DNA of 64,000 bases, from the NCBI GenBank assembly GCA_026399835.1, contig JAPLQE010000084.1:1-64000 (forward strand), written 5' to 3'. The translations under genes were made by a program, and so were the position numbers. This DNA is from Burkholderiales bacterium (GTDB lineage: Bacteria; Pseudomonadota; Gammaproteobacteria; Burkholderiales; Burkholderiaceae_E). Shown here piece by piece: positions 4,845 to 41,767 of the stretch. The notes below the pieces were generated by a model. It searched no databases and was not told where the DNA came from. It saw only the letters and a list, made by a program, of their open reading frames with translations. Numbering within the stretch: the first letter of the stretch is position 1; each line of letters begins with the position of its first letter.

Positions 4845-4849
4845 AGGTC

Positions 4850-4864: not shown

Positions 4865-4877
4865 ATGCACAACCGCC

Positions 4878-5108: not shown

Positions 5109-5130
5109 GCGGGCGGCGGGCGGCGCGTCC

Positions 5131-5802: not shown

Positions 5803-5860
5803 GGCCCGACGATAGACGAGCCGGGCGGGCCGTGCGATGGCACCGGATGCAGGGGCCGGG

Positions 5861-5866
5861 GATAAT
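5861..5866 (+). promoter_or_regulatory. -10 box (GATAAT) close to the start of the DapA-family gene
   Basis: GATAAT matches five of six -10 consensus positions and ends only six bases before the ATG at 5873. Transcription would then begin at or next to the start codon, which suggests a leaderless transcript; no Shine-Dalgarno sequence lies between. No convincing -35 box is visible. Confidence 0.35.
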
Positions 5867-5872
5867 CGCCGC

Positions 5873-6811: not shown

Positions 6812-6886
6812 GCGCGGCCGCCGGCGATCGGCGAGCGCTTCGGCGTGATCTCGATCCCGTCGCGGACAGCGCGCCGCGTGCGTCGG

Positions 6887-11227: not shown

Positions 11228-11380
11228 GGCGGCAGGCGCGGCGGGGGGCGCATTCGGGGGCACCGTCCGATTGTCCGCCAGCCGCGTGCCGAGCGCGCAT
11301 CGCGGCGGGCCGCGAGCCGGGGCCGCATCCGGAACGCCGCCTTCGGCAGGGGGCCGGGCCGGGCGTACCATGGCTGCAGC

Positions 11381-12313: not shown

Positions 12314-12531
12314 GGCAGCGCCCGGGTCGGGCGCGTTGCCGGCCGGCGACGGCCGGTCGCTGCAGATCGGCCGCCGGTCGGCCTGGCGGCCCATCCGTGC
12401 CTTCGAGCCCCCCGCGGGCGCTGCCGGCCGCGTCCGGGCAGAGGCACAATCTCGGTACGCGAGCTGCCGGCCCGCTCCCTTCCCCTCCAGTCCTGCGCCG
12501 CGGCGCAGCGCCGCGCGGAAACGACCCATCG

Positions 12532-15500: not shown

Positions 15501-16581
15501 CACGCTCGCGTTCGCCATCGCGGCCCGGGACGGCGTCGACGGCGAGCCGGTCGCGGCCGCGCTGCTCGAGCGGCTGCGCGACCATCCGTTCGAGCACGGC
15601 GAGGAGCGTTACCGGATCGGCGTGCACATCGGGCTCGCGCGCTTCGTGCCGGGGCGCGACGAGCCCGAGGAGGTGATCGGACGCGCCGAGTCGGCCTGCG
15701 CCGCCGCCCGCGAGCAGGGCCGCAACCGGGTTCAGGTCCACGAGCGCAGCAGCCGGGAACTGCGCACCCAGGAGTCGCTCGTCGACTGGGCCGGCCGCCT
15801 GGACCGGCTGCTCGAGGGCGACGGGCTCTTCCTGCGCTGTCAGCGCATCCAGCCGATCGGCAGCGACGCGGCGCTGACGCCTTACTTCGAGGTCCTGCTG
15901 GGAATCGATTCGGCCGACGGCCCCGCCGATCCCTCGGACTTCGTCGCCGCGGTCGAGCGGCTCAAGCGCTCCCACGAGCTGGACCTGTGGGTGATGCGCC
16001 AGACGCTCGACTGGATCGACGCGAACCCCGCCGTGTTCGATGCGATCGGCGGCTTCGCGATCAACGTCTCGCCGCGCTCGCTCGACAGCCCGGAGATCCT
16101 GGGCTTGCTGCACCAGCGGCTCGGACGCCTCGGCCCCGACGCCGCCAAGCTGACCTTCGAGCTGACCGAGAACTCCGCGATCGAATGCTACGGCGCGGCG
16201 CAGGACTTCATCCGGCAGGTCCGGCGCTACGGCTGCCGGCTCTCGCTCGACGACTTCGGCAGCGGCTACGCGTCCTACGCGCACCTGAAGAACCTGCGCA
16301 CCGATGTGCTGAAGATCGACGGTTCGTTCGTGCGCGACATCGCGACGAATCCGGGCGACCTGGCGATGGTGCGCTCGATGCACGAGGTCGCCCGCTCGCT
16401 CGGGATGCGCACCGTCGCCGAATACGTCGAGAACCACGAGATCCTCGACATGCTGCGGGCGATCGGCATCGACTACGGCCAGGGCTGGGCGATCCATGCC
16501 GCCTGCCGGATCGACGCGCTTGCCGATGCGCCCGACACGCTGATCCTCGCCTACGAGCCGGCGGACGCCGCCGCCGCATAG
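12532..16581 (+). CDS. PilZ-like / DUF1631 / degenerate GGDEF / EAL protein
   Basis: A 1349-residue cyclic-di-GMP-linked protein. An N-terminal PilZ-like segment (EQRRYSRL near residue 4, then DYCLTGLL) is followed by a DUF1631 region from about residue 124. Next come an Ala/Ser/Thr repeat linker (residues about 376-423), further helical DUF1631-like sequence, a GGDEF domain (about 905-1075) and an EAL domain (about 1105-1340). The GGDEF active-site loop reads SHGDDT in place of GGDEF, so cyclase activity is unlikely. The EAL half keeps ELTENSAI, LDDFGSG, VLKIDGSF and AEYVE, with EVLL in place of EAL, so phosphodiesterase activity is plausible. No membrane helices are apparent, suggesting a cytoplasmic protein. 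Confidence 0.87.
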   Translation: MARTEQRRYSRLATRLDARVRAAGSAARVQVRDYCLTGLLAVPCGDADRAAVARLVRGEVVELALDGGPVLKAVLARAGAAGLGLLVSSLPEEALAVLNAAAVAARAAATAAEPPNPAAAASARQVMQRACQRQFAASLNKVLEGLLSALPAALDGAVAMRQGVTLRSDFVGAAHRVRHDRAGIASRFNAALREAMRHPNRRRGEASLDELPIALALVDDAQFEEWLSLSAVVQRIESDHSLPLADLRRRYGALRVLPLDRVSDPFGPEAIMRAFQQAIEPLELATPVRVVVYDTFGEVLRAQCAALYDALNQLLAPLDEPSAARRIVRRAARPRSESVGEPGTERAAVAATAAPNIAATGAAGVAGVAALGTAAASTAATAATVATASTASTASTASTASTASTASTASTAATAATAATAAAASGLAVRTAPRVAARALAAVASPAPRTAAATASPGTQSLLELVGRLRHQRARVRPAGASTNGSETTDPAPVPADPSALPGLLDALLAAATAPTADGVPAADAAGPALSERLTLALDALPIAPAQRSTIELATGLIGRALSEPDADTAIRRLLRRLEAPLLRLALRDPAFLASRIHPGRRLVDLLEQCSIATDDRGRFEDPKLDRLLNRMVERVAAEVGRDPTVLERNARVLERLLGPIRKARRHRVERLQQAFEAREGVRVARRRVDAALAARLGGRRVPPAIQGLLECGWTQSMTLAEIRGGASGGATERALGTLVRLVDALSGERDAAPADARRALDTEVEPTLRAMGTEPDRIDACLSGLATALDAVERRGPVAGGTPLPVPQAEPEDTDPAFSRRLRIGDWWQLDGGDGTRAMQLVWLSTPPRACGFASRSASERHELTLGAVAREVEAGRMRPCSDRDRPLLERSELDLLDEGWQALRQRAQCDPVTGLPNRRSFLATLARTDGTPSAQAGERWIGLVQFDTLRIVGARCGVDAAESLLRVLVEQACEALGPAAQLASHGDDTLAFAIAARDGVDGEPVAAALLERLRDHPFEHGEERYRIGVHIGLARFVPGRDEPEEVIGRAESACAAAREQGRNRVQVHERSSRELRTQESLVDWAGRLDRLLEGDGLFLRCQRIQPIGSDAALTPYFEVLLGIDSADGPADPSDFVAAVERLKRSHELDLWVMRQTLDWIDANPAVFDAIGGFAINVSPRSLDSPEILGLLHQRLGRLGPDAAKLTFELTENSAIECYGAAQDFIRQVRRYGCRLSLDDFGSGYASYAHLKNLRTDVLKIDGSFVRDIATNPGDLAMVRSMHEVARSLGMRTVAEYVENHEILDMLRAIGIDYGQGWAIHAACRIDALADAPDTLILAYEPADAAAA
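13657..13800 (+). repeat. 9-bp tandem repeat (16 units) inside the GGDEF/EAL gene
   Basis: Sixteen in-frame 9-base units encode Ala-Ser-Thr, Ala-Ala-Thr or Val-Ala-Thr tripeptides. Eight consecutive units (13693-13764) are identical GCATCCACC, flanked by GCAGCCACC variants. Because the unit is a multiple of three, slippage would change linker length without breaking the frame. On the other strand the same DNA gives a Met-Arg-Trp repeat that I regard as a shadow. Confidence 0.9.
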
Positions 16582-16604
16582 CGGCGTCTCGCGCTGCGCC
16601 CGGG

Positions 16605-18482
16605 TCAGTCCAGCCGGTAGCCGTCGGCCGGCAGCCGCCGCCAGCTGCCGTCGCCGGGCAGCTCGAGCACGTCGGCGTGGAAGCGCACGACGCCCGGCCG
16701 GTGGCTGACGCTCACCGGCGTCGTCCGCGTCAGGGCGAGCGCGCGGTACAGATGCTCTTCGTTGGCCGCGTCGAGCGCGCTGGTCGCCTCGTCGAGCATC
16801 GCGTAGCGCGGCTCGGCGAGCAGCACCCGGGCGAACGCCAGCCGCTGCTGCTCGCCGATCGAGAGCACCCGGGCCCAGTCGTGCTCGGCGGCGAGCCCGC
16901 CCGATCGCTCGGCGAGCTCGCCGAGGTTCACGCGGGCGAGCAGCGCATGCAGCGCGGCGTCGTCGATCGGACGGCCCCGGTCCGGATACAGCAGCTGGTC
17001 GCGCAGCGTGCCGAGCGCCATGTACGGCTGCTGCGGCAGGAACATCAGCTGCTCGGGTCCGGGCCGCTCGATGCCCCCGCTGCCTGCGGTCCACAGCCCC
17101 GCCACCGCGCGCAGCAGCGAGCTCTTGCCGCCGCCGCTGCCCCCCGCGATCAGCAGCCCGCGGCCCGGCTCGACGGCGAGCGTCAGGTCGACGACCAGCG
17201 TGCGTGCGCGGTCCGGCGTCTCGAGCGTGACATGCTCGAACGCGAGCCGGTGGCCCCCTGTCGTGATGATCCGCGGGCCGTCGGACCCCGGCGACGCCGG
17301 CGGCTGCTGCCCGGCCAGGCGCGTGCCGGACCCGGCGCCTTCGGCGTGCGCATCGAGCGAGCGCGCGAAGCCGTAGAGCCGGTCCACGCCGGCCGAGAGC
17401 CGGCTCAGCCCCTCGAAGTGCTCGACGACGACCGTCATCGCCGCGAGGATCGCGGCGAACGCGCCGCCCGCCTGCACCGCGCGCCCGACCTCGAGCTCGC
17501 CCGACAGCACCCGCGAGGCGATGATGGCGCTGGGCAGGACGATGGTGAGGAAGCTGAATGCGTACTGGAACAGGTTCAGCCCGAACTGCGTGCGGATCAG
17601 CCGCCGCCAGTTCTCGAACACCGCCTCGAACCGGCCCTTGGCGCGCTCGGCCTCGTCGGCCTCGCCGTGCGACAGCGCGATCGGCTCGGCGTGCTCGCGG
17701 ATGCGCACCAGCGCGAAGCGGAAGTCCGCCTCGCGCCGCAGCTGCCGGAAGTTCAGCCCCACCAGCGGCCGGCCGAACACCGTCATCGTGACCGTGGTGC
17801 CCAGCAGCGCATAGCCGACGAGGAAGTACACCAGCGTGTGCGAGATCGACCACAGCACCGCGACGAAGGCGACGAGCTGGATCGACGCGCCGACCGCGAT
17901 CGTCAGGAAGTACAGCGACTGCTGCGTGAAGGTCGCGACATCCTCGGCGATCCGCTGGTCCGGATTGTCGATGTCGCCCGCCGGTCCGGGGGCGTAGTAG
18001 GCGCGGTCGCGCAGCCATGCGTCGACGAAGCGGTGGGTGAGCCAGCGCCGCCAGTGCAGGCCCAGCGTGTCGCGCACCCAGTAGTAGGTGGCCCAGATCG
18101 GCACCGCGACCACGAGCAGGCCCAGGGTCCACCGGATCGATGCCCAGAAGCGCGCCGCGTCGCGGGCGGCCAGCGCCGAGGTCAGCTCGCCGCTCTGGTG
18201 GACGAACTGCAGGTTGAAGGCGGTCTGTCCGAGGAGCAGCACGGCCGCCGTCACCAGCAGCACGCTCGCTCGCCAGCGTTCCTCGGAGCGCCAGTAGGGA
18301 CCCGCGATCGCCCGGAAGCGCCGCCAGCGCCGCAGGTCGAAGCGCGCGCGCTCGATGCGGCCCGCGTCGGCCGCGGCCGTTCCCGGTGCCGCGTCGATGG
18401 CGGACAATGGCGCTCGCCCACCCCGGTCAGCGGATTCCCCGATGCCCTCGTCACCCTTCGAGCCACCCGTCGATCTCGGCAT
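16605..18482 (-). CDS. ABC transporter, fused permease/ATPase (SbmA/YddA type)
   Basis: A 625-residue protein with an N-terminal transmembrane domain (about residues 65-360) containing helices such as VLLVTAAVLLLGQTAFNLQF and WRRWLTHRFVDAWLRDRAYY, a segment typical of the SbmA/BacA/YddA and peroxisomal ABCD group. The ATPase domain carries Walker A GGSGGGKSS near residue 446, a Q-loop (FLPQQPYMALGTLRD), signature LSIGEQQR and Walker B YAMLDEATSALD near 560. Relatives act in uptake or export of peptides, vitamins or acyl chains across the inner membrane. The ATG at 18482 overlaps the divergent GH84-like gene by 41 bases; a TTG at 18407 would avoid this and is a reasonable alternative start. 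Confidence 0.87.
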   Translation of the reverse strand: MPRSTGGSKGDEGIGESADRGGRAPLSAIDAAPGTAAADAGRIERARFDLRRWRRFRAIAGPYWRSEERWRASVLLVTAAVLLLGQTAFNLQFVHQSGELTSALAARDAARFWASIRWTLGLLVVAVPIWATYYWVRDTLGLHWRRWLTHRFVDAWLRDRAYYAPGPAGDIDNPDQRIAEDVATFTQQSLYFLTIAVGASIQLVAFVAVLWSISHTLVYFLVGYALLGTTVTMTVFGRPLVGLNFRQLRREADFRFALVRIREHAEPIALSHGEADEAERAKGRFEAVFENWRRLIRTQFGLNLFQYAFSFLTIVLPSAIIASRVLSGELEVGRAVQAGGAFAAILAAMTVVVEHFEGLSRLSAGVDRLYGFARSLDAHAEGAGSGTRLAGQQPPASPGSDGPRIITTGGHRLAFEHVTLETPDRARTLVVDLTLAVEPGRGLLIAGGSGGGKSSLLRAVAGLWTAGSGGIERPGPEQLMFLPQQPYMALGTLRDQLLYPDRGRPIDDAALHALLARVNLGELAERSGGLAAEHDWARVLSIGEQQRLAFARVLLAEPRYAMLDEATSALDAANEEHLYRALALTRTTPVSVSHRPGVVRFHADVLELPGDGSWRRLPADGYRLD

Positions 18483-30941: not shown

Positions 30942-31601
30942 ATGATCACGCTGCTCGTCGTCGACGATCACGCCCTGTTCCGCGGCGGCATGCGCCTGCT
31001 GCTGGCCGACCTCGGCGTGTCCGCGCGCGTGCTCGAGGCCGACTCGGTCGAGGCCGCGGTGGCGATGGACGAGCGGCCCGACCTGGTCCTGCTCGACCTG
31101 CACCTGTGCGGCCTGAGCGGGCAGCCGGCGCTCGCGATGATCCGCGAGCGGATGCCGGACGCGACCGTGGTCGCGCTGTCGGGCGAGGAGGACCCCAAGC
31201 GGATCCGCGCGACGATCGAGGACGGCGCCTCGGGGTTCATCCCGAAGACCTCCACCCCCGGCGTGATGATCGGTGCGCTGCGGCTCGTGCTGGCCGGCGG
31301 GGTCTACCTGCCGCCCCAGGTGCTGCGCGCCGACGCGGCGCCCGCGATCTCGGCGGGACGCGCGCCGATGGCCTCGGCCGGCGTGCTGGAGTCGCTCACG
31401 CCGCGCCAGGTCGACTCGCTGATGCTCGCGATCCGCGGCAAGTCGAACAAGGCGATCGCCCGCGACCTCGGCGTTTCGGAGGGGACGGTCAAGCAGCACC
31501 TGTCGGCCGCATTCCGCGTGCTCGGTGTCGACAACCGGACGCAGGCGGTCTTCGCGGCCGCCCGGCTCGGACTGGCGGGTCCTGCGCCGCATGTCGGCTG
31601 A
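30942..31601 (+). CDS. LuxR-family response regulator (first copy)
   Basis: A 219-residue NarL/FixJ-type regulator. The receiver starts LLVVDDHALFRGGMRLL, with phospho-acceptor Asp-52 in LVLLDLHL, a Ser in ALSGEE and Lys in FIPKTS. The HTH domain is in LTPRQVDSLMLAIRGKSNKAIARDLGVSEGTVKQHL. It overlaps the next kinase gene by 11 bases, so the two are coupled. It is clearly paralogous to the regulator at 39382, with which it shares the phrases RVLEA, GFIPK and LAGGxYLPPQxLR. Its target may be the large fusion gene downstream. Confidence 0.92.
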   Translation: MITLLVVDDHALFRGGMRLLLADLGVSARVLEADSVEAAVAMDERPDLVLLDLHLCGLSGQPALAMIRERMPDATVVALSGEEDPKRIRATIEDGASGFIPKTSTPGVMIGALRLVLAGGVYLPPQVLRADAAPAISAGRAPMASAGVLESLTPRQVDSLMLAIRGKSNKAIARDLGVSEGTVKQHLSAAFRVLGVDNRTQAVFAAARLGLAGPAPHVG

Positions 31602-33363
31602 GGCCCGGGTCGGCGCGCCCGCAGGCGTGCGCACCGATCCGATCCGGCCCGCCGCGGCCGCCGAGGATGCGCAGCAGGCCGCGCTCGCGCGCCTGGCCCG
31701 ACAGGCGCGCGACGATGTCTGGCCGGTGGCGCTCGCCGTGGTCGCCCTGTTCGGCGTGACAGTCGGGCACCTGCCCGCCGGTGTGCAGGCGGGCTGGGTC
31801 GGCGCCGCGGCGCTGGTCATGCTGGTCCGCGGGCGGGCGCTCGAGCGTCTGGCGGCGGACACGGCCCGCCCCGCGCCTGCGCGGCTGCGCCGCGCGGGCG
31901 GCATCGGCATCGCGAGCGCGGCCGCGTTCGCTGCGGTCGCCGGCGCCGCCCCCTGGCTGCCCGACGCCGAGCGCGTGCTGCTCACGCTGGTGGTGCTCGC
32001 CCTGGCGACGCTGACCTCGATCGGTGCAGCAGGCGCGCGACCGGTGGCGGCGTGCGCGCTGCTGCTCGGGGCCTCGGCGCTCGGCTGGCTGCTCGTGCCC
32101 GCGGACACGCTGTCCGTCGGTGTCCGGGTCGGCATTGCCGCGCTGCTGTGCGGGATCGTGGTGCTGCTGCGGCGGCGGGCCGGTGAGCTCGATGCCCTGC
32201 TGGCCGAGGCGCACGGGCTGCGCGCGGACCGGGCCACGCTCGGCGCGAGCCGCGACGAGGCGCTCGCCCGACTGCGCACGGCCGAAGGCGCCACTGCCCG
32301 CACGATCGCCGCGATCGGGCACCGGCTGCGCCAGCCGGTCTACGCGCTGCGGCTGTTCGCCGCGTCGCTCGGCGAGCGGCCGCTCGAGGCGCGTGCCGCC
32401 GAGCTGGCGCGGCGCGTCGACGGCTCGGGGCAGGACCTGGCCCACGACCTCGAGACGCTGCTCGACCTGTCTCGGCTCGAGGGCGGCACGCTGCACCCCG
32501 AGCGCGAGCCGGTCGAGACCGAGAGCATGGTGCGGCGGGTGATCGCCTCGCTCGAGCCGCTGGCGGTCCTGCAGGGGCTGAGCCTCGGCCACGAGCTCGA
32601 GCCCGGACTGCGGGCCGACACCGATCGCCGGCTGCTCGAGCGGGTGCTGCGCACGTTCGTCGTCGGTGCGATCGCGCGGACCGGGTCCGGTGGCGTGACG
32701 ATCGAGGCTCGGCGCGAGGCGGGCCGGTGCGTGATCGAGGTGATCGACAGCGGTCGCGCGCTGGAGCCCGAGGAACTCGCGCGGCTGACGGACATGCGGG
32801 TACCCCCGGACCCCTCGGGGGATCTCGCGCCCGCGGTGGCCGCGAGGCTGGTGCTGCGGCTCGATGCATCGTTGCGCGCGCACACCGAGCCCGATGCGGG
32901 CACGACCCTGCGGCTCGAGCTGCCGCTGGCGCCCGACGCCGCGCCCGGTGAGGCGCTCGCCGCACCCGAGGAGGGCGCGTCGGCGGGCGCGCTCGCCGGC
33001 CTGCACGTGCTGGTCGTCGACGACGAGCCGGCGGTGCGCGCCGGCACCCGCTTCGTGCTCGGGGACCGGGGCGCCCGCGTCAGCGTCGCCGCGGACCCGG
33101 CCGAGGCGATGGCGAGCGCGCTCGCCGACCGCCCGGACGCGGCGCTCGTCGACCTGCGCCTCGGGCGCGGCGACTTCGGCCTGCAGCTCGCCCTGCGGCT
33201 GCGCGAGCACTGGCCGGGCCTGGTGCTGATCCTCATCAGCGGCGACCGGACGCCCGAGGCGGTGCGCGCAGCCGAGGCGGCCGGCCTGCCGGTGCTGGGC
33301 AAGCCGATCGATGCCGAGCGGCTGGTGCGCGCGCTGCGACAGGCCGGCGGGCCTACAGCGTGA
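31591..33363 (+). CDS. Hybrid sensor kinase-like protein with degenerate ATP domain
   Basis: A 590-residue membrane protein: an N-terminal block of about six helices (residues about 45-210), a coiled segment, an HisKA domain with AIGHRLRQPVYALRLF (His-244), then a catalytic-domain remnant and a C-terminal receiver (HVLVVDDEP from about 471, Asp-521, Lys near 570). In the ATP-binding domain the N-box Asn is lost (LLERVLRTFVVGAIART), the G1 box reads DSGRALEPEE, and the GLGLA G2 loop is replaced by DLAPAVAARLV. It therefore probably cannot autophosphorylate, and may act as a phosphatase or accept phosphate from another kinase. The receiver is intact. It is coupled to the response regulator just upstream. 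Confidence 0.85.
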   Translation: MSAEARVGAPAGVRTDPIRPAAAAEDAQQAALARLARQARDDVWPVALAVVALFGVTVGHLPAGVQAGWVGAAALVMLVRGRALERLAADTARPAPARLRRAGGIGIASAAAFAAVAGAAPWLPDAERVLLTLVVLALATLTSIGAAGARPVAACALLLGASALGWLLVPADTLSVGVRVGIAALLCGIVVLLRRRAGELDALLAEAHGLRADRATLGASRDEALARLRTAEGATARTIAAIGHRLRQPVYALRLFAASLGERPLEARAAELARRVDGSGQDLAHDLETLLDLSRLEGGTLHPEREPVETESMVRRVIASLEPLAVLQGLSLGHELEPGLRADTDRRLLERVLRTFVVGAIARTGSGGVTIEARREAGRCVIEVIDSGRALEPEELARLTDMRVPPDPSGDLAPAVAARLVLRLDASLRAHTEPDAGTTLRLELPLAPDAAPGEALAAPEEGASAGALAGLHVLVVDDEPAVRAGTRFVLGDRGARVSVAADPAEAMASALADRPDAALVDLRLGRGDFGLQLALRLREHWPGLVLILISGDRTPEAVRAAEAAGLPVLGKPIDAERLVRALRQAGGPTA

Positions 33364-36300
33364 CCTGCAGCGGCGCGCCGATCGCCGCACCGTGCGCGTC
33401 GACCTGCTCGACCTCGAGCGACCAGCGCCCGTCGGCATCGCGCTGCACGCCCAGCTGCGTGAAGTGCCGCGGCACGGTGGCCTCGGCGCCCAGCACCCGC
33501 GCATGGGCGACCAGCGTGGCATCGTCCGAGAACGGCAGCCGCACGAGGCCACGGGCGAGTTCGCGCGGGCTGCCGTTGGCGAACGGCAGCGTGGTGTTCA
33601 GGCCCGAGGCGACCACGACGATCAGCCGTGCACGCCGGTGCCCGGGACCGACGCGGTCCTCGATCTCGATCTCGATCACGCACGAGTAGTGCGGGTCGCC
33701 GCACAGCAGCACCACCGGTGCACCCTCGCACGCGAGCACCGCCCGCAGCAGCTCGCGGCAGCTGGCCGGGTAGCCGTGCCAGTCGTCGGCCCGCAGCGCG
33801 GTCGCCGCCGAGCCGTCGAGCTCGCTCGCGCGCGGCAGGCCGATCGGGCTGCCGCACAGCAGCAGCCGGGGCGCCGCGGCAGGGCTCGTCGGGCCGGTCT
33901 TCAGCCAGTCCGCGAGCGCATCGTGCTGCGCCCGGCTCATGATCCGGTCGTCCTTCCAGGAGGAAGCGCTGCGCCGCGTCCGCTCGGTGCGTGCATCGAG
34001 CGCGAAGCCGCGCAGCGTCGCCGCCTCGAACGGATGCCAGAAGCCGCGCGTCACGCGGTCGCCGTCGTGGGACGGGGTCTGCGGCGACGTGCCGAGACGC
34101 AGGCCCCGCCACTGGTAGGCGAGCGCCGCGCCGAAGCCTTCCCGGAACCGCGCCGACAGCGGGGTCTCGAGCCCCGTCGGCATCGCTGACGTGGACGAGG
34201 CCCCCGGCCAGTCGTCGCCGAACTCGTGGTCGTCGACGACCGTCCAGGTCGGCAGGCTCGCCAGCAGCGTCGCCATCTCGGGGCTGGGCAGCTGCTCGTC
34301 GGCGAGCGATTCGCCCGAGAACGCCTCGCGGTAGCGCTGCGAGGCGCGCTCCTCCGGGATGCCGGTGTCGAACAGGTCGGCGGTCGCGTCGACGTAGACC
34401 TGGTCGCCCAGCAGGAGCAGCGCGTCGATGGTCGGTGCGTCGCGCTGCACGCGGGCGTTCATCGCGGCGATCGGGGCCGCCGAGGCGCCGCGCTCGAAGG
34501 CGAGCCCCGGCCAGCGGCACGACCCCACCAGGAAGGTGATCCGGCGCGGCGCGCGATCGCCCGCGGCACGCAGCTCGAAGAGGTGGCGCAGCCACGGCGC
34601 GCGGTTCCAGGTGTCGGTGATGGCGATCCGCCGGGCCATGTACGCGTCGGACAGCTCGCGCAGGTCGGGCGCGGCGTCCCAGCCGTCGTCCGCCCCGGGC
34701 CCGTCCGCCCCGGGCCCGTCCGGATCCAGGTCGACACCGGTGTCGACGTACGGATGCGGGATGTCGGGCTGCGGACCGCCCGCGCCGAGCGGGCATTCCC
34801 AGGTCAGTCGCCGGTAGTCGCCCGGCAGCGCTTTGTCGAGCTGCTCGTGCACCCAGACCGAGCCGGGCGCGGGCTGCACGCGCACGCTTCGGAACGGCCG
34901 CAGCTCGATCCACACCTCCAGCTCGAAGCGCGTCGGCTCGAGCGTGTAGCGCAGCATCGGTCCGACCCAGGGCGTGGCGTCGACCTCGAGCTGCGGGCTG
35001 AGCCGGACCGCGTCCTGCCGGTCTGCCGCGCCGTGCGCGGCCTCGCGTTCATCGAGCCAGCGCTGCGGGTCGTCGACGAACGCGCGCAGCGTCTCCTGCA
35101 GGCCGGCACCGGGCCTGCGTTCGGCGCGCGCTGCGGGCGCCGGCGCGCCGTTGTGCCGCCCGAACAGGAAGTCCATGTGGCCGATGCCCTCGGGCAGATA
35201 CATCCCGCAGCGTCCGATGGTGGGCACCGTGCGCCGCAGCAGCGACATCGCGAGAAAGGTGCGGGCCGCGCTCGCCGGATCGAAGACGCCGTTGGCCCGC
35301 CCGGTGGCGAACAGCGTCGGGAAGGTCCAGTGCTCGCCGAGCGCCTTCTGCGTCAGGTAGGCGTTGCGGCCGTGCGCATCGGTGAGCCGCTGGCGCCGCA
35401 GGATGTAGAACAGGTGCCTGAAGACCGACAGGTGCGCCGGACCGACCAGCTCGTGCAGCCGCGAATGGGTCCTGGGGTCGAGGTTGTCGTGGTCCCACTC
35501 GCGCCCGTAGAAGAGCGTCATGCGGTTGCAGATCAGGTCGCCGTAGCGTTCGTGATCCGTCGGATCCTCGCCGCGCCGCTTCGCGTCGTCGAGGTGGATC
35601 GCGTTGGCCGTGCCCTCCCACGGGATCGAGGCCGCCAGGCGGTCGATCACCTGGTCCATCCCGAGGGCCGGCGAGCCGGGCAGGGGATCGAGCACCTGGT
35701 CCCCGACCACGTCGCGGTAGAACGCCGCGAGCGACGCCGACACGCGGTTCCAGCGCGAGGGCACCGTCCAAGGATGCACGGCGTGCATCACCAGCCCCGA
35801 GATCCGCGAGCGGCGGTCGTCGCGCGCGAGTCGGCCTGACAGGACCGAGATCGACAGCGCCGCCGCGCCGACGCAGTGGGCGAACACCCGGATCCCGTCG
35901 GACGCGGGCGTGCCCTGCGCGTGCAGCACCGCCTCGATCTTCGCGAACGCGCCGGGGATGTCGCAGGCGGCCACGTCGTCGATCGTCGACGCCTGGCGCG
36001 GGGTGTCGCCCAGCAGGTTCGAGAGCCGGTGGTCGAGCACCCACACGTCCCAGCCGGCGTCGACGAAGCACGCGGCCATCGGGCAGTCGACGCTCGACGT
36101 GGTGTAGACCTCGCCGCCGTGCGCCAGCCCGTGGATGAACAGCATCGGCCCGCGCGCCGTGCGCAGACCGTTCGCGGGGGCGCGGTAGCGCGACAGCCGC
36201 AGCGTGATGCGCTCGGCCGAGTGCTCGGTGCGCGGCACGCTGAATGCGAACGGCTCCGGACCGATGCGCGTGCCGTCGGCCAGCCGCAGCGCCGACAGCG

Positions 36301-39130
36301 GCGCGTACGCGAGCGGGCGCAGGTTCGGCGCGTCGCGGTCGGGGCCGCGGAAGCTCCAGTAGTGGGTCTGCGCCAGCGCCCGCAGCCACAGCGCACCGAC
36401 CGCCGACATCGCGGCCACCGCATGCGGCGTGTCGGGGGCGCCCCGCAGCTGGTAGGGGCCGCGCGCCAGCAGGTCGAGCACGTCGACCCGCATCGCCCAC
36501 GGCGCGCCGCGACGACCGTCCCGGGTCGGATGCAGGTCCAGGCGCAGCAGTGCGTCCCAGATGTTGCGGGCGCCGCCGGTGTAGGCCAGCCGCTTGCCGC
36601 CCTGGAGCACGAGCGGCGAGCCGCCGGGGACCGGCAGCGTCACGGTGTAGTCGAGCGTCCGGTGGGTGGTGTGCATGCGCAGCGCGCGCAGGAACAGGCG
36701 CAGGCTGTCCCAGGCGGCGCGCGCGCCGTGCTCCCGCAGCGTGCGCGTCAGCTCGGCCATGAAGCGGCCGCCGGGACGCCGCGCCCTGAACGCGCGCAGC
36801 GAGCCGATCAGGCGCCCTGCGAGCGTGAACGGATTGCCCGGCGGATCGGCGCGCAGCAGGTGCAGCGTGCAGGTCCCGCGCAGGACCGTCCGCTCGGTGC
36901 CGCCCGGCGCCGCGCCGCGCGCGTCGACCACCGACAGCGTCGCCGCGCCCGTCCAGGCGAGGGCCGGATCGGCCACCCAGCGCCAGGGATCGATGTCAGC
37001 GTCGATGCGCAGCGCGAGCCGGGCCTGACCAGCCTGCAGCGTGGCCACCGTGCCGCCCTGCAGCGGCGGCTGCACCGCGTCGAAGAGGGGCGCCAGCGCG
37101 CCGAGCGGCAGCCGCTCGCCCGGCTCGGTGAGCAGGGCCTCGGTGAACCCCAGCCGGGTGCCGGGGGGCGAGGCGACGCCGTCGGCGGTCCCGGCCGGCA
37201 GACCCTGCAGCCCGTCCGGGTGCGCTCGAACGCGCACCGCCCACGGTCCGGCCGCAGGCGGCGCGACGAGCCGGTGGCCGGCCTCGGCATCGAGCGCGCG
37301 GGCGATCCGGCGTGCCGCGCGGATCGAGACCGCCGCGATCGTCGCCATCGGATTGACGCCGAGGGCGCTCGGCAGGATCGCGCCGTCGAGCACGTGCAGC
37401 CCGTCGTGCACCGCGCACGGGTCCGACGAGGCGGGGTCGTACACGCGGCCGATGTCGTCGACCGCCCCGGCCTCGCGGTGCTCGCCCATCACGCAGCCGC
37501 CGATCGGGTGCACGGTCACCAGCCTGCGGTCGGTCGTGCCGAAGATCGACTCGGCCGATGCAGGCAGCAGCCGCCAGGCCGGGTTCGGCATGTGGAAGCC
37601 GCCGTCGAAGCCGCCCGCGCGTCCTGCGTGCTCGAGGGCGGCCTCGATGCCGGCGATGGTCGGGTCCGCGGGCGCGTAGCCGAGGCTGAAGCGCAGCCGC
37701 GGGCGGCAGTTGCCGGCGGTCGCCTCGAGGGTGATCGAGCCGGTGGCGCCGTCGCGGCCCATCGCGAGCAGCACCTGGCTGCGATCCGGCAGGTCGTCAC
37801 GCACTGCGGCCGGGTCGCCTCCGTCCGCCCAGGCATGCTGCGAGGGCGCCCGCGCGTTGGTCATCGACTGCACCGTGCCGGCCGCCGACAGCAGCGTGCC
37901 GATCAGCGGCGCCATGCCCGCGGGCACGGCGCCCTCCTGGAGCACCGCGTCGCGCGGCAGCGCGCCCGGCGTCGTCCCCGCACCGTCCGTGGCGATCACG
38001 CCGACGATGGTCGGCCCCACCTGAGGGCGCCCCTGCGCCGCGTCGTCCGGCCGGGCGACCGCGTGCACCGGCGTGCGCTGGCCCCAGCCGAAGGACAGCA
38101 GGTCGCCGTTGCCGGAGAACCGGCGGCCCAGCGTCGCGGGCATCGGCAGCGTGTCGGATGCCGATCGCATCAGCAGCTCGGCCGACCCGAGCGCGCCCGC
38201 CGCGATCACCACCACGTTGGCGAGCACCTCGAAGCCGTCGGCCCGTTCGTGGCCCGCACCGAGCGTGGCGATGCGCTCGAAGCGCACCACCCAGCGGGCC
38301 GGCGCGCCGCTGCCGGGCACGCGGGCGCCGGGCGGAGCCCGCGACACGAGCACGGCCTGCGCGCCGGTCCAGAAGCGTGCGCCGCGCTCGGCCGCGAGCG
38401 GAATGGCGCTCGCATGCAGCGTGTTCTTCGAGCCGTGGTTGCAGCCGGTCACGCAGTTGCCGCAGGCGATGCACGCCCGTCGCTCGACGCCGACCGCGCT
38501 CGTGCCGTCGTGCCCGGCCACCGCGATCGGCGCGGCGCTGACCCGGGCTTCGGGGATCGCGCGGGCGAGCCGCTCCAGGGCCCTGTACTTGGGGAAGCGC
38601 TCGGGCGCCTCGAACGGTGCCACGCCGATCACGGTCCGCGCCCAGCCGTAGGCGTGGCGCAGCGCCGCGCGGTCAGAGCGGATCGCCTGAGGCCAGCGCG
38701 GATCGTCGAGCACCGCGTCGCGGGGCTCGAGGAACACGCCGGCGTTGATCAGCGAGCCGCCGCCGAGCCCGCAGCCGACCAGCGCCATCGCGTCGTCGTC
38801 GATGCGCAGGTCGAAGAGCGCGTCCCGGTAGCCGCGCGGCACGCCATCCGCGGCGCGCGTGAACTGCACGTGCCCGGGCAGCTCGCCGAGCGTCTCGGCG
38901 AACTCGCCGGCAACGAACTCGCGCCCCCGTTCGAACACCCAGACGCTGCGGTGGTCGGCCGCGAGCTCGAGTGCGGCGAAGCTGCCGCCGTAGCCCGAGC
39001 CGACGACCACCACGTCGCAGGCGCGTGTCCCGGGCGACGCATGCTCCGCGAGGAAGGACTCGGCCGGCTGCGCGTAGCGCGTGCGGGACAGGGGAGGGCG
39101 GGAGTCCCGCGCGGCGCTCGGCTCGTTCAT
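33353..39130 (-). CDS. Giant fusion: GMC oxidoreductase - alpha/beta hydrolase - PhoD-like phosphoesterase
   Basis: A 1925-residue protein. Residues about 35-620 are a GMC oxidoreductase: FAD GxGxxG in VVVGSGYGGSFAALELA, a Cys cluster ACIACGNCVTGCNHGSKNTL typical of cholesterol-oxidase relatives, TVHPIGGCVMGEH and GVNPMATIAAVSIRAA. A linker (about 640-980) leads to an alpha/beta hydrolase (about 985-1340) with LFIHGLAHGG and nucleophile Cys in FAHCVGAAAL. The C-terminal part (about 1400-1925) is PhoD-like, with VGSCRWPG, LLLGDQVYVDAT, VVDDHEFGDDW and GDPHYSCVIEIE. No signal peptide is evident, so it is probably cytoplasmic. A lipid or sterol-like substrate processed by oxidation, ester cleavage and phosphodiester cleavage is an inference. 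Confidence 0.88.
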   Translation of the reverse strand: MNEPSAARDSRPPLSRTRYAQPAESFLAEHASPGTRACDVVVVGSGYGGSFAALELAADHRSVWVFERGREFVAGEFAETLGELPGHVQFTRAADGVPRGYRDALFDLRIDDDAMALVGCGLGGGSLINAGVFLEPRDAVLDDPRWPQAIRSDRAALRHAYGWARTVIGVAPFEAPERFPKYRALERLARAIPEARVSAAPIAVAGHDGTSAVGVERRACIACGNCVTGCNHGSKNTLHASAIPLAAERGARFWTGAQAVLVSRAPPGARVPGSGAPARWVVRFERIATLGAGHERADGFEVLANVVVIAAGALGSAELLMRSASDTLPMPATLGRRFSGNGDLLSFGWGQRTPVHAVARPDDAAQGRPQVGPTIVGVIATDGAGTTPGALPRDAVLQEGAVPAGMAPLIGTLLSAAGTVQSMTNARAPSQHAWADGGDPAAVRDDLPDRSQVLLAMGRDGATGSITLEATAGNCRPRLRFSLGYAPADPTIAGIEAALEHAGRAGGFDGGFHMPNPAWRLLPASAESIFGTTDRRLVTVHPIGGCVMGEHREAGAVDDIGRVYDPASSDPCAVHDGLHVLDGAILPSALGVNPMATIAAVSIRAARRIARALDAEAGHRLVAPPAAGPWAVRVRAHPDGLQGLPAGTADGVASPPGTRLGFTEALLTEPGERLPLGALAPLFDAVQPPLQGGTVATLQAGQARLALRIDADIDPWRWVADPALAWTGAATLSVVDARGAAPGGTERTVLRGTCTLHLLRADPPGNPFTLAGRLIGSLRAFRARRPGGRFMAELTRTLREHGARAAWDSLRLFLRALRMHTTHRTLDYTVTLPVPGGSPLVLQGGKRLAYTGGARNIWDALLRLDLHPTRDGRRGAPWAMRVDVLDLLARGPYQLRGAPDTPHAVAAMSAVGALWLRALAQTHYWSFRGPDRDAPNLRPLAYAPLSALRLADGTRIGPEPFAFSVPRTEHSAERITLRLSRYRAPANGLRTARGPMLFIHGLAHGGEVYTTSSVDCPMAACFVDAGWDVWVLDHRLSNLLGDTPRQASTIDDVAACDIPGAFAKIEAVLHAQGTPASDGIRVFAHCVGAAALSISVLSGRLARDDRRSRISGLVMHAVHPWTVPSRWNRVSASLAAFYRDVVGDQVLDPLPGSPALGMDQVIDRLAASIPWEGTANAIHLDDAKRRGEDPTDHERYGDLICNRMTLFYGREWDHDNLDPRTHSRLHELVGPAHLSVFRHLFYILRRQRLTDAHGRNAYLTQKALGEHWTFPTLFATGRANGVFDPASAARTFLAMSLLRRTVPTIGRCGMYLPEGIGHMDFLFGRHNGAPAPAARAERRPGAGLQETLRAFVDDPQRWLDEREAAHGAADRQDAVRLSPQLEVDATPWVGPMLRYTLEPTRFELEVWIELRPFRSVRVQPAPGSVWVHEQLDKALPGDYRRLTWECPLGAGGPQPDIPHPYVDTGVDLDPDGPGADGPGADDGWDAAPDLRELSDAYMARRIAITDTWNRAPWLRHLFELRAAGDRAPRRITFLVGSCRWPGLAFERGASAAPIAAMNARVQRDAPTIDALLLLGDQVYVDATADLFDTGIPEERASQRYREAFSGESLADEQLPSPEMATLLASLPTWTVVDDHEFGDDWPGASSTSAMPTGLETPLSARFREGFGAALAYQWRGLRLGTSPQTPSHDGDRVTRGFWHPFEAATLRGFALDARTERTRRSASSWKDDRIMSRAQHDALADWLKTGPTSPAAAPRLLLCGSPIGLPRASELDGSAATALRADDWHGYPASCRELLRAVLACEGAPVVLLCGDPHYSCVIEIEIEDRVGPGHRRARLIVVVASGLNTTLPFANGSPRELARGLVRLPFSDDATLVAHARVLGAEATVPRHFTQLGVQRDADGRWSLEVEQVDAHGAAIGAPLQVTL
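34689..34718 (-). repeat. 15-bp tandem duplication in the fusion gene
   Basis: Two perfect copies of TCCGCCCCGGGCCCG lie side by side and encode the repeated Gly-Pro-Gly-Ala-Asp linker in the C-terminal third of the fusion protein. The unit is a multiple of three and keeps the frame. Confidence 0.8.
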
Positions 39131-39166: not shown

Positions 39167-39219
39167 AGCACGACGGGGTGCCGGGGCGACTGGCCAAAAG
39201 GCCTAGACCATCCGGGCGA

Positions 39220-39249
39220 TTGCACGGACCCGTCTGCCTGGCGTGTAAT
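39220..39249 (+). promoter_or_regulatory. Candidate promoter for the second response-regulator gene
   Basis: TTGCAC (39220-39225) and TGTAAT (39244-39249) are 18 bases apart; the -10 matches five of six consensus positions, the -35 only three. It lies about 130 bases before the ATG at 39382, leaving a long leader that includes a pyrimidine tract. Confidence 0.3.
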
Positions 39250-39297
39250 CCGCTCAAAGGGCCTCGGAGACGGTTGCCGAGCGTCCGCCTCGCTGCG

Positions 39298-39326
39298 CTC
39301 CTCTCCTCTCCTTTCCTTTCCCCCTC
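39298..39326 (+). repeat. Pyrimidine-rich CT tract in the leader of the second response regulator
   Basis: A run of C and T, mainly CTCCT/CTTTCC units with no purine, lies 56 bases before the ATG at 39382. It stands out in otherwise GC-balanced sequence and could be a slippage-prone or single-stranded element. It is non-coding. Confidence 0.5.
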
Positions 39327-39381
39327 GTCGCCTGCATTGCGCTTGCGGACGCCCCCCCGTCCCTCCCTTAGCCGAGTCGCG

Positions 39382-40032
39382 ATGAACCTGCTGCTGATCG
39401 ACGACCACACGATGTTCCGCAGCGGGCTCAGGTTCCTGCTCGCGGAGATCGACGCCGGGGTCCGCGTCCTCGAGGCGGGCAGCTGCGCCGAGGCGCACGG
39501 CTACCGTGACGAGCCGATCGACCTGGTGCTGCTCGACCTCTCGATGCCCGGTCCGTCGGGCGAGGCCGCGATCGCTGACGTGCGCGCCGCCTTCGCCCGT
39601 GCGACGCAGGTCGTCGTGTCGGGCGAGGACGATCCCTGCCTGGTGCACCGCTCGATCGCGGCCGGCGCCGCCGGGTTCATTCCCAAGTCCTCGCCGCCGG
39701 CGGCGTTCGCCGATGCGCTGCGTCGCGTGCTGGCCGGCGGCACCTACCTGCCGCCGCAGGCGCTGCGCGGCCGTGCCGCGGCGGGCACGCGTCCGCTGTC
39801 CGCGGTCGTCGATGGCCTGTCGGCCAGGCAGTCCGAGGTGTTCGGACGTGCGGTCCAGGGCCAGACCCTGGGCACCATCGCCCGCGAGCTCGAGCTGTCC
39901 GAGGATGCGGTGGACGATGCCCTGTCGGCCGCGCTGCAGGCGCTCGGCGTCGCCGACCGCACCGAGGCGGTCTACGCCACCGCGCGGCTCGGCGTCAGCG
40001 TTCCGGTGCGCTCCCCGGCGCACGCTCGCTGA
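39382..40032 (+). CDS. LuxR-family response regulator (second copy)
   Basis: A 216-residue regulator with a receiver (LLLIDDHTMFRSGLRFLL, Asp-52 in LVLLDLSMPG, VSGEDD, Lys in FIPKSS) and a C-terminal HTH in LSARQSEVFGRAVQGQTLGTIARELELSEDAVDDAL, slightly divergent from the LuxR consensus. It is paralogous to the regulator at 30942. The ATG at 39382 starts the receiver strand. Its last 38 bases overlap the end of the convergent kinase gene, so expression of one may affect the other. It may control the GMC fusion gene, its divergent neighbour. Confidence 0.9.
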   Translation: MNLLLIDDHTMFRSGLRFLLAEIDAGVRVLEAGSCAEAHGYRDEPIDLVLLDLSMPGPSGEAAIADVRAAFARATQVVVSGEDDPCLVHRSIAAGAAGFIPKSSPPAAFADALRRVLAGGTYLPPQALRGRAAAGTRPLSAVVDGLSARQSEVFGRAVQGQTLGTIARELELSEDAVDDALSAALQALGVADRTEAVYATARLGVSVPVRSPAHAR

Positions 40033-41767
40033 CACTGCGCCGCAGCCACGCCGCGAGCGTCCGCTCGGAGACCGGCTTGCGGTAGACCGCCACGTCGGCC
40101 GCACGGTCCGCGCCGCGGTCGGCGGTCTCGAGGTCGCCGGTCACGATCGCCGCGGGCAGGCCGGGGCACAGCGCGCGCGCGCGCGCCACCGCGTCGAATC
40201 CGTCGCCGCGCCCGCCCAGCCGGTAGTCGGCGATCAGCGCCGCGGGCGGCGGCCCCCGCCAGCCGGCCAGCGCGTCGAGCAGCGCCTCGGTGGTCTCGAA
40301 CACATGCGGCCGGCAGCGCCATGCGAGCAGCATCTCGGTCATCGCGATCCGCACCCGCTGATCGTCGTCGAGCACCAGGACGTCGAGCGAGTCGGGCGCC
40401 GCGGGCTCGGCCGTGCCGCGACCGGCGTGCGCCTGCGGCGCATCGGGCGCGACGGCCGTGCCGTCGACGAGCTCGAGGGCGAGGGTGAAGGTGCTGCCCG
40501 CGCCCTCGGCCGAGCGCAGCTCGATGCGGTGACCGAGCAGCTCGCAGAGCCGCCGCACGATCGCCAGGCCCAGGCCCGAGCCGCGCTCGGGCGCGCGGTT
40601 GGGGTTGCGAAGCTGGTGGAACTCGTCGAAGACACGCTCGAGGTCGGCCGCGGGGATGCCGCTGCCGGTGTCGCGCACGGCCAGCAGCACCCGCGGCCCC
40701 TCGACGGCGGCCGTGACCTCGACCTCGCCGCGCTCGGTGTACTTGATCGCGTTGTCGATCAGGTTGCGCAGCACGCGCTCGAACAGGAACGGATCGGTGC
40801 GCACCCGCAGGCATTCGTCGACGCGCAGGTGCAGCGCCAGCCCCTTCTGCGCGGCCGCCACCGACAGCTCGCCGACCACCGGCTCGACCAGGGTGCGCAG
40901 CCCGACCTCGCTGACCGAGGCGCTGACCGCGCCGGCATCGAGCTTCGAGAGGTCGAGCAGCCCCGAGAACAGCTTGTCGAGCGATGTGGCTGCCGACTGG
41001 ATGTGCTGCACGAACTGCTGGCGGTTCTCTGCTTTGCCGCGCTCGAGCAGCGACGAGAACAGCATCAGGGTGTGCAGGGGCTGGCGCAGGTCGTGGCTGG
41101 CCGCGGCGAGGAAGCGCGACTTCGACAGGCTCGCCTCCTCGGCCGCGCGGCGCGCCTCCTGTGCCGCCTCGGTCTCGCTGCGCAGACGTTCGAGCAGCAC
41201 GTCCTTCTCGCGGCTGATCCGCACCGATCCGATGAAGTCCTGGCTGATGCGCATGGAGAACCGCGTCATCAGCAGCCCCAGGCCGGTCAGCGCGAGGGCC
41301 GGCGCCCAGCCCACTTCGCTGTGCGTCGCCCAGTAGGCGATCATCGACCCGAAGTTGATCCATGCGCCGGTCGCGAAGGTGGGTGGATGCGTCGACGCGT
41401 TGATCAGCGCGCCGAGCGAGTAGAGCGCGAGGAGCATGGTCACGAGGAACAGCAGCGGCGGATCCTCGGTCTGCAGCGAGTTCAGCCAGATGCCCGCGCC
41501 GACCGCGATCGTGTTCATCACCGTCAGCCACCACAGCCGCTCCTCGGCGCGCGCGACCTCGGCGGGCGGTGCGTCCTCCGGCATCGCGGCGATCGGCACG
41601 CACATCCGCTGGTTGACGATCGCGGCGGTGGCGACGATCGCGCCCCAGACCAGGCTCGGCCAGCCCCCGCCCATCCAGGCGAACAGCCCGCCGACGGCGA
41701 TCGCGATGCCGGCGACCACCGGTCCGGTGTGGATCGACTGCGTGGCGCGCAGCCGGACCGAACGCAC
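39995..41767 (-). CDS. Hybrid sensor histidine kinase/response regulator (second copy, intact)
   Basis: A 590-residue membrane kinase. Six hydrophobic segments lie in the first 170 residues (GPVVAGIAIAVGGLFAWMGG, then VNTIAVGAG-type helices), followed by a coiled segment, HisKA with SHDLRQPLHTLMLF (His-225), a complete ATPase domain (RNLIDNAIKYT, DTGSGIP, GSGLGLAIV) and a C-terminal receiver with Asp near 514 in LIADYRLGG. It should autophosphorylate. The start used is GTG at 41767; the frame is open upstream to a CTG at 41827 with a GGAG site seven bases before it, so the N-terminus may be longer. It is convergent with its partner regulator and overlaps it by 38 bases. Confidence 0.9.
   Translation of the reverse strand: MRSVRLRATQSIHTGPVVAGIAIAVGGLFAWMGGGWPSLVWGAIVATAAIVNQRMCVPIAAMPEDAPPAEVARAEERLWWLTVMNTIAVGAGIWLNSLQTEDPPLLFLVTMLLALYSLGALINASTHPPTFATGAWINFGSMIAYWATHSEVGWAPALALTGLGLLMTRFSMRISQDFIGSVRISREKDVLLERLRSETEAAQEARRAAEEASLSKSRFLAAASHDLRQPLHTLMLFSSLLERGKAENRQQFVQHIQSAATSLDKLFSGLLDLSKLDAGAVSASVSEVGLRTLVEPVVGELSVAAAQKGLALHLRVDECLRVRTDPFLFERVLRNLIDNAIKYTERGEVEVTAAVEGPRVLLAVRDTGSGIPAADLERVFDEFHQLRNPNRAPERGSGLGLAIVRRLCELLGHRIELRSAEGAGSTFTLALELVDGTAVAPDAPQAHAGRGTAEPAAPDSLDVLVLDDDQRVRIAMTEMLLAWRCRPHVFETTEALLDALAGWRGPPPAALIADYRLGGRGDGFDAVARARALCPGLPAAIVTGDLETADRGADRAADVAVYRKPVSERTLAAWLRRSVSERAPGSAPER

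Follow-up and report, generated by a model that had tools for sequence, protein, structure and literature searches.

A GMC–alpha/beta hydrolase–PhoD fusion gene of a Burkholderiales bacterium, its separate and partly fused relatives, and a predicted lipid-processing pathway

The closest described counterparts of the gene considered here are enzymes of three kinds: cholesterol oxidase of Streptomyces (4u2l, 2gew), a single enzyme of about 500 amino acids (aa) with the GMC fold; the gastric and lysosomal acid lipases (1hlg, 1k8q, 6v7n); and the PhoD alkaline phosphatase/phosphodiesterase of Bacillus subtilis (2yeq), from a family that includes a phospholipase D, that of S. chromofuscus (available part of PMC4223295). 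Two further systems bear on the comparison, namely BcGDH (6a2u), the catalytic subunit of the FAD-dependent glucose dehydrogenase of Burkholderia cepacia, a GMC-fold enzyme whose 3Fe-4S cluster is bound by C212, C218 and C222 and whose partners in the working complex are a multihaem cytochrome and a small hitchhiker subunit (available part of PMC6719666), and the polyhydroxyalkanoate (PHA) synthase PhaC, an alpha/beta hydrolase (ABH) that itself resembles gastric lipase and uses a Cys-His-Asp triad (available part of PMC5509742). Here we describe a gene of a Burkholderiales bacterium (assembly GCA_026399835.1), located in a window of 64,000 nucleotides (the whole stretch analysed, positions 1 to 64,000 of contig JAPLQE010000084.1), in which a GMC domain, an acid-lipase-like ABH domain and a PhoD domain are joined in one reading frame.

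The fusion gene and its distribution

Three enzyme folds had been recognised in this frame in an earlier note made from the sequence alone; Pfam, profiles built from relatives and AlphaFold models agree with that reading, and every active-site motif named in the note is present in the 1925-residue product. The gene and the parts of its product are the following.

33353-39130, minus strand: single open reading frame (ORF), GMC / middle domain / alpha-beta hydrolase / PhoD, 1925 aa, ATG start, no internal stop
37283-39073, minus strand: GMC flavoenzyme domain, residues 20-616 (Pfam, profile match, model and fold search)
38441-38473, minus strand: cysteine motif C220-x2-C223-x2-C226-x3-C230, predicted Fe-S ligands (conservation and BcGDH spacing)
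36341-37168, minus strand: middle domain, mixed alpha/beta, residues 655-930 (invariant residues, model)
35075-36253, minus strand: acid-lipase-like ABH domain, residues 960-1352, predicted triad C1086, N1280, H1318 (profile, alignment, fold search)
34601-34969, minus strand: beta-rich segment followed, ahead of PhoD, by a linker of low confidence, residues 1388-1510 (AlphaFold model)
33356-34600, minus strand: PhoD-type metallophosphoesterase, residues 1511-1925 (Pfam, 2yeq profile match, motifs)

The fused frame was confirmed to be real, with no assembly error. The window genome is a draft of 4.95 Mb in 93 contigs; complete fused frames of 1855-2119 aa were found in nine of its 100 relatives (G006, G011, G013, G015, G017, G021, G025, G043 and G091), one of which (G017) carries two fused loci, and in two more (G008 and G010) the gene is broken off by contig ends. 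Among members of the same genus, G011 has an open frame of 1958 aa with 75% identity to the window protein, and G008 (contig C549) one of 1736 aa with 93% identity, matching query residues 203-1918 and ended by the contig end. Comparison with the same-genus relatives L051 and L052 (the latter lacking the first 202 residues) gave ratios of nonsynonymous to synonymous substitution (dN/dS) of 0.25-0.62 in all five segments of the gene, linker included. Moreover, a complete Ensifer plasmid carries an annotated fusion gene of 5727 bp (WP_205239617.1), labelled 'alpha/beta fold hydrolase'.

The triple fusion is not limited to one genome and is spread through Pseudomonadota. Any match to the fusion protein at E 0.001 was obtained in 23 of 101 genomes (the window's own and the 100 relatives); in a class-wide sample of 369 genomes, 13 (own included) matched at 1e-20, and besides the window's own genome G243 and G259 had GMC and PhoD matches in one frame. 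The distribution of the gene is therefore patchy. Fused frames occur, among the matches listed, in Ramlibacter, Acidovorax, Janthinobacterium, Variovorax, Hahella, Cellvibrionaceae and Rhizobium, and also in Ensifer plasmids; the motif scan behind the named loci kept the best 80 of 510 and is no census of taxonomic spread. Two fused genes, in an Ensifer canadensis plasmid (L137, 9602-15590) and in a Nitrospirae-labelled metagenome-assembled genome (MAG; L095, 7036-12871), have a GMC part broken by a frame change and represent either pseudogenes or sequence errors. PhoD is also matched at two other places of the window genome, on contigs C4 and C74, the frames there measuring 862 and 546 aa.

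The domains are of known kinds, and their joint architecture is already present in databases under a generic name. No publication describing a GMC-ABH-PhoD fusion was found among open-licence PMC papers, which does not imply its absence from print. Specialists, we expect, will find four features new, all considered below: an Fe-S motif in GMC enzymes of the cholesterol-oxidase branch, a predicted Cys-His-Asn triad, a middle domain that fits no class, and linkage to histidine kinases.

Enzyme domains and their active sites

Row counts given below for the enzyme domains refer to redundancy-reduced alignments of 56 or 36 rows, and motif counts to 99 GMC, 90 ABH and 46 PhoD domains. The GMC domain exceeds the Pfam cut-offs for GMC_oxred_N (residues 101-325) and GMC_oxred_C (462-601), and contains the motifs GSGYGGS (44-50, with the flavin adenine dinucleotide (FAD) motif at 44-49), HPIGGC (541-546) and VNPM (592-595). 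The profile of its relatives matches cholesterol oxidase at 1.2e-53 and BcGDH at 3.1e-17, and a fold search with the AlphaFold model of residues 1-980 (mean predicted local distance difference test score, pLDDT, 88.9) placed cholesterol oxidase first, followed by fructose dehydrogenase (8jej), likewise of the GMC fold, and BcGDH. H541, N593 and C546 are invariant in all 56 GMC rows, and the first two align with a conserved His and Asn of cholesterol oxidase, which we take to be catalytic residues in that enzyme. E361, the active-site Glu of the Streptomyces enzyme, lies in a part left uncovered between the alignment's two stretches. Kinship with cholesterol oxidase, which the earlier note had suggested, holds for the fold, the FAD motif and the His/Asn region; it probably does not extend to oxidase function, as the cysteines described next make a dehydrogenase likelier.

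The arrangement C-x5-C-x3-C is kept in all 99 GMC domains, and a fourth cysteine (C223) in 97 of them. One of the two motif patterns used to collect the 80 named loci was the cysteine motif itself, and among the 79 of these loci whose GMC domain could be used, 41 contain that exact pattern and 38 lack it; the three-cysteine spacing was nevertheless found in all 38 domains retrieved through the other pattern and in all 20 found without a motif scan. The spacing is identical to that of the 3Fe-4S ligands of BcGDH and, judged by alignment ranges only, falls in a collinear stretch of the GMC fold, although the fourth cysteine lies three positions after the first in the fusion and one position after it in BcGDH. 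Cholesterol oxidase 4u2l has no cysteine at this site. Since the three invariant cysteines have 3Fe-4S spacing, an Fe-S dehydrogenase is likelier than an oxidase, and the GMC domain would pass electrons through a cluster at this predicted site. No gene for a hitchhiker (gamma) subunit or a cytochrome was found among the immediate neighbours in the window, the rest of the genome not having been searched. 'Cholesterol oxidase' was rejected as a family name, given that the domain reaches 119.2 bits, where the curated family NF058674 requires 850.

The middle domain is part of the GMC gene even where the ABH is encoded by a separate gene, and its residues E664, Y828 and K846 are invariant in 73 of 73 rows. 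It folds with mostly high confidence in the model of residues 1-980. Pfam gave no match for it better than E 0.067, and all 50 matches listed in the fold search with that model are GMC proteins; the domain matches no known family.

For the ABH domain, the single-sequence Pfam match is weak and below the cut-off (residues 995-1035, E 0.043), and it is the profile of 56 relatives that reveals its affinity, matching human gastric lipase at 3.5e-22 and PHA synthase at 2.3e-7. Gastric and lysosomal acid lipases, together with PhoD, are also the top folds for the AlphaFold model of residues 960-1925 (mean pLDDT 80.3), and PHA synthase is again among the matches. The nucleophile, acid and His positions of the acid lipases all align with the fusion; for gastric lipase we take these to be Ser153, Asp324 and His353, a numbering consistent with the alignment. 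The differences are a change of Ser to Cys and of Asp to Asn, and the position of the ABH as an internal domain.

The designation as a Cys-type hydrolase, made in the earlier note from the motif AHCVGA (residues 1084-1089), is borne out, since the Cys nucleophile is kept in 55 of 56 rows (L083 has Gly) and in 89 of 90 domains; script patterns scored both ABH motifs in 74 of the 90, and the count of 89 comes from reading the 16 printed exceptions by eye. At the position of the triad acid, Asn is present in 53 of 56 rows and Ser or Thr in the other three, with Asp in none. The triad His is found in 54 rows, the two remaining loci (L037 and L083) having been missed by extraction or alignment, and both contain GH.D; the His of L037 was cut off by the extracted stretch and is otherwise there. 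The predicted triad is therefore Cys-His-Asn. It shares the Cys nucleophile with PhaC and differs from it in the third residue, and PhaC is also the weaker match of the two. The locus L083, from an Acetobacteraceae MAG, combines a fused GMC-ABH gene (3518-7387) whose ABH has lost the nucleophile Cys (HGAG) with an intact separate ABH gene (HCLGA) downstream, at 8723-9928.

No Pfam match was obtained in residues 1331-1510, which precede the PhoD domain. The latter matches PF09423 over residues 1561-1823 with 55.8 bits (cut-off 27), and the profile of its relatives matches B. subtilis PhoD at 9.6e-25. Its motifs GDQVYVD (1575-1581), DDHEFGDD (1633-1640) and GDPHYS (1811-1816) supply, with C1538, the residues D1576, Y1579, D1633, D1634, H1635, E1636, D1639, D1640, D1812 and H1814, and four PhoD motifs are present in all 46 domains. 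Seven ligands have been mutated in the B. subtilis enzyme (C180, D207, D265, D266, N271, N272 and D436; available part of PMC4223295), of which five are identical in the window protein (C1538, D1576, D1633, D1634 and D1812). N271 and N272 are replaced by D1639 and D1640, and Asp could still bind metal. PhoD is an extracytoplasmic enzyme, whereas the PhoD of the fusion, being an internal domain, appears to have no N-terminal export signal, in that a simple hydropathy scan showed no hydrophobic segment at the N-terminus of the chain.

Separate, partly fused and fused forms, and their gene partners

Comparison of 105 loci (L035-L139) distinguished four states of the family: (i) two separate genes, one for GMC with the middle region (about 785 aa) and one for ABH (about 356 aa), (ii) GMC fused to ABH, in most cases with a length of about 1150 aa, (iii) a GMC-ABH fusion of greater length, followed immediately by a PhoD gene (10 clean split loci), and (iv) the full GMC-ABH-PhoD fusion. 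The class scored as split numbers 13 and includes three loci (L108, L095 and L137) that are not clean splits, and the class without PhoD numbers 53 and includes two (L046 and L099) that end at a contig edge. At the GMC-ABH/PhoD junctions, possible 4-base start/stop overlaps were seen in four of nine cases examined. In acidobacterial L108, a single case, the PhoD gene lies about 0.8 kb upstream of GMC-ABH.

In a quick tree of 87 GMC domains (the window and 86 of the 99, with 13 near-duplicate or partial rows dropped), a branch with a Shimodaira-Hasegawa-like approximate likelihood ratio test (SH-aLRT, no bootstrap) value of 100 parts 42 GMC-ABH or separate-gene rows from all PhoD-associated rows. 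L050, with separate genes, is a long outlier beyond both sides, and fused and split forms are mixed on the PhoD side, whose members belong to Pseudomonadota wherever the record names a phylum; the Nitrospirae-labelled L095 is outside the tree set. Two-domain GMC-ABH proteins such as WP_002741297.1 and WP_149201188.1, annotated 'alpha/beta fold hydrolase', share the first two enzymes of the fusion, have no fused phosphoesterase and lie on the sister side. The possibility that close relatives encode the domains separately, named in the note as a refutation, is borne out in part: G005, of the window's own genus, has GMC-ABH with an adjacent PhoD gene, but these belong to a remote branch of the family (30-37% identity to the window by domain), and no such split is found in the window's orthologues. 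The genus thus holds both fused (G011) and split forms, and the split form of G005 speaks for gene fusion or fission rather than an artefact.

That the three activities form a set is best supported by a second phosphoesterase family. Six Bacteroidota loci (L106, L107, L117, L125, L133 and L134) encode a metallophosphoesterase, in a frame of 570-645 aa, immediately upstream of GMC, and in five of them (L134, at 9807-18448, L125, L106, L107 and L133) the same run of genes also holds ABH, an acetoacetate-decarboxylase-like (ADC-like) protein (PF06314), patatin and small proteins, one weakly resembling anthrone oxygenase; L117 is a short contig. A homologue of 604 aa precedes GMC-ABH by 34 bp in an Azospirillum oryzae plasmid (L142, 6068-7882), possibly through horizontal transfer. 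Against the PF00149 cut-off of 21.5 bits, the protein of L134 scores above (24.6) and those of L125 (21.1) and Azospirillum (19.5) just below; the other members were counted by homology, with no Pfam scan. In the L125 protein, hydrophobic segments follow the catalytic part (read by eye). Because this family is not PhoD, a phosphoesterase seems to have joined GMC(-ABH) at least twice, and the partnership was probably formed more than once. That the activities belong to one pathway, as proposed in the note, is thus supported both by the recurrence of the partners as adjacent genes and by this second family. The note's derivation of the reaction order from the domain order is not warranted, as a separate phosphoesterase gene is found downstream where it is of the PhoD type (the 10 clean split loci) but upstream where it is of the PF00149 type.

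Regulatory genes, on which the note is silent, are the other regular companions of the fusion, which is flanked in the window by two response-regulator/hybrid-kinase pairs, one on each side (30942-33363 and 39178-41767).

30942-31601, plus strand: NarL/LuxR-type response regulator, upstream of the kinase at 31525-33363 (receiver then helix-turn-helix, translation read by eye)
31525-33363, plus strand: hybrid histidine kinase with hydrophobic N-terminal sensor part (translation, kinase match, hydropathy), convergent with the fusion gene and overlapping its 3' end by 11 bp
39178-40032, plus strand: NarL-type response regulator (Response_reg and GerE), transcribed divergently to the fusion gene; the coordinates are those of the ORF, and the gene probably starts later
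39995-41767, minus strand: hybrid histidine kinase of the second pair (HisKA, HATPase_c; receiver under cut-off)

In 30 of 38 fused or split loci, a hybrid histidine kinase is found no more than 300 bp from the gene; beyond that distance, up to 10 kb, the flanks of all 38 add just two kinase matches. These loci, which do not include the window, were taken from 49 fused or split ones after removal of near-duplicates (L038, L077 and L135), of loci with short or truncated flanks (L051, L052, L060, L067, L069 and L045) and of loci with odd or broken architecture (L108 and L137). Kinase-like matches of this sort number 28 in the 4.95 Mb of the window genome, two of them beside the fusion gene; at this density we estimate chance adjacency at well under 1% per locus. 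A NarL-type regulator is present within 3 kb in 28 of the 49 loci, namely in 23 of the 36 fused and 5 of the 13 split ones, its place being taken in Ensifer, Rhizobium and Mesorhizobium by an adenylate-cyclase-domain protein. The N-terminal parts of 16 linked kinases contain from 2 to 8 hydrophobic segments in a simple scan, and in a Paraburkholderia group of GMC-ABH loci a related kinase is mostly found 0.4-1.4 kb upstream. These observations lead us to infer that the kinase controls the fusion gene. Phosphate-starvation control through a Pho box was considered and rejected: the window contains 30 matches to the pattern, below the 41 expected from shuffles, and none lies upstream of the start.

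Proposed function and alternatives

With modest confidence we favour the view that the fusion is a cytosolic chain of three enzymes with apparently intact active sites, acting on one class of amphipathic lipid-like substrate under the control of a histidine-kinase relay. The PhoD domain, as an Fe/Ca phosphoesterase, would strip off a head group linked as phosphate or phosphodiester; the acid-lipase-like domain, with its Cys-His-Asn triad, would cleave or transfer an acyl group by way of an acyl-thioester on C1086; and the GMC domain would use FAD to dehydrogenate the freed hydroxyl, with electrons leaving through a surface Fe-S cluster to some acceptor other than oxygen. A membrane histidine-kinase relay would govern expression. 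What can be read from sequence or models is which folds are present, which residues match catalytic and ligand positions, how the genes are linked, and the gradation from separate through partly fused to fused forms; from these we infer the cytosolic location, the order of steps, the lipid-like substrate, any channelling, the occupancy of the cluster site and the control of this gene by the kinase. The lipid reading draws on the nearest solved relatives, which are lipid-active (cholesterol oxidase, gastric lipase, lysosomal acid lipase/cholesteryl ester hydrolase, and PhoD with a phospholipase D in its family). The catalytic residues of each domain are maintained across large divergence. The relatives with separate genes, usually beside a sensor kinase, likewise suggest an undescribed regulated pathway, probably acting on lipid-like molecules.

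More tentatively still, the family may represent a kinase-gated lipid-processing machine new to biochemistry, composed of an Fe-S GMC dehydrogenase with its unclassified middle domain, a Cys-His-Asn hydrolase or acyltransferase of acid-lipase fold and a metallophosphoesterase, and assembled stepwise from separate genes by way of two-gene fusions into a single chain, with repeated recruitment of the phosphoesterase from different families. If so, its separate, two-domain, split and three-domain forms would supply a set of evolutionary intermediates for the study of an undescribed multi-step conversion, and would add an Fe-S member to the cholesterol-oxidase branch of GMC enzymes and a catalyst of acid-lipase fold with a Cys-His-Asn triad. 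With the chemistry tied to a sensory kinase, the inducing signal, and hence the substrate, would be accessible to experiment.

Several observations weigh against the favoured view. The lipid-processing activity is itself a prediction. The fusion may not matter for catalysis, because L083 keeps its intact ABH separately, and a simple hydropathy scan revealed no clear membrane segment in the fusion chain, nor an N-terminal hydrophobic one. A homologue of the PF00149-type phosphoesterase is present in 6 of the 53 loci without PhoD, other phosphoesterase families not having been looked for; GMC-ABH without a recognised phosphoesterase nearby is common, and the phosphoesterase step is therefore not demonstrated to be obligatory. 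Beyond the regulators, no neighbour family occurs in more than 9 of the 38 loci (opposite-strand frames excluded), the minor ones being partly identified, and these 38 include kin, such as two Acidovorax, and are not 38 independent cases. Finally, no Pho-box-like site was found between 39130 and 41900, upstream of the start, with up to three mismatches allowed.

Three alternatives deserve serious attention. Co-expression for convenience, in which three independent enzymes of one regulon have neither a shared substrate nor channelling, is improbable in our judgement; it is favoured by the coexistence of split and fused forms and by the low-confidence linker that separates ABH from PhoD. The second phosphoesterase family found beside GMC or GMC-ABH argues for a shared pathway, though not for channelling. 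An acyltransferase of PHA-synthase type, moving an acyl group from coenzyme A (CoA) or another thioester onto an alcohol while the other domains prepare or trim the acceptor, would place the protein in biosynthesis or remodelling rather than in degradation. The almost invariant Cys nucleophile (55 of 56 rows, 89 of 90 domains), the PHA synthase matches in both profile and fold searches and a GMC-ABH copy near phaC/phaE and a CoA-transferase on a Rhizobium leguminosarum plasmid are consistent with it. This reading is nonetheless unlikely, as gastric lipase is much the better match, the Asp of the PhaC triad (available part of PMC5509742) is Asn in the fusion, and the PHA-gene link comes from that one plasmid locus, no search having been made elsewhere.

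A sterol- or steroid-specific chain, which would free sterols from esters (perhaps also from phosphates) and oxidise their 3-hydroxyl in the manner of an esterase and cholesterol oxidase, finds backing in the nearest folds, cholesterol oxidase and gastric lipase/cholesteryl ester hydrolase, and in the alignment of H541 and N593 with the former. We consider it quite unlikely in view of the NF058674 score (119 against 850 bits) and of a cysteine motif missing from cholesterol oxidase; in a weak test, no known steroid enzyme was met among 10 neighbour proteins scanned in relatives that included Bacteroidota and cyanobacteria, the window genome not having been searched for steroid catabolism genes. 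An artefact of assembly or annotation joining neighbour genes has a negligible probability and was rejected, given the complete fused frames in nine of 100 other genomes, in named isolates and in the complete plasmid carrying WP_205239617.1, and dN/dS below 1 across the linkers. A role in anti-phage defence was also rejected, the fusion protein having no PADLOC match at E 0.01.

Minor observations concern the wider neighbourhoods. A shorter run of GMC, ABH, ADC-like and patatin genes occurs in two Nostocaceae (L081 and L084) and in Nitrospira (L124). A gene for a DUF6765 (PF20551) protein was found at L091 (12364-13431), L113 (12358-13425), L082 (10781-11860) and L048 (10047-11180); in three cyanobacteria it comes after GMC, and in G072, a proteobacterial genome, it stands immediately before GMC-ABH. 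L048 also has an unrelated PF00149 gene of 295 aa about 65 bp downstream of GMC-ABH, with a homologue in no other locus, and this lone case may be due to chance. On the Leptospira borgpetersenii plasmid lbp2 (L140), a GMC-ABH gene lies two genes away from a hybrid histidine kinase. The same stretch encodes another GMC oxidoreductase, a protein annotated as sphingomyelin phosphodiesterase and one with an adenylate-cyclase domain. The R. leguminosarum plasmid locus (L141, 288-11473) contains, besides phaC/phaE and the CoA-transferase, an iron-containing alcohol dehydrogenase near GMC-ABH.

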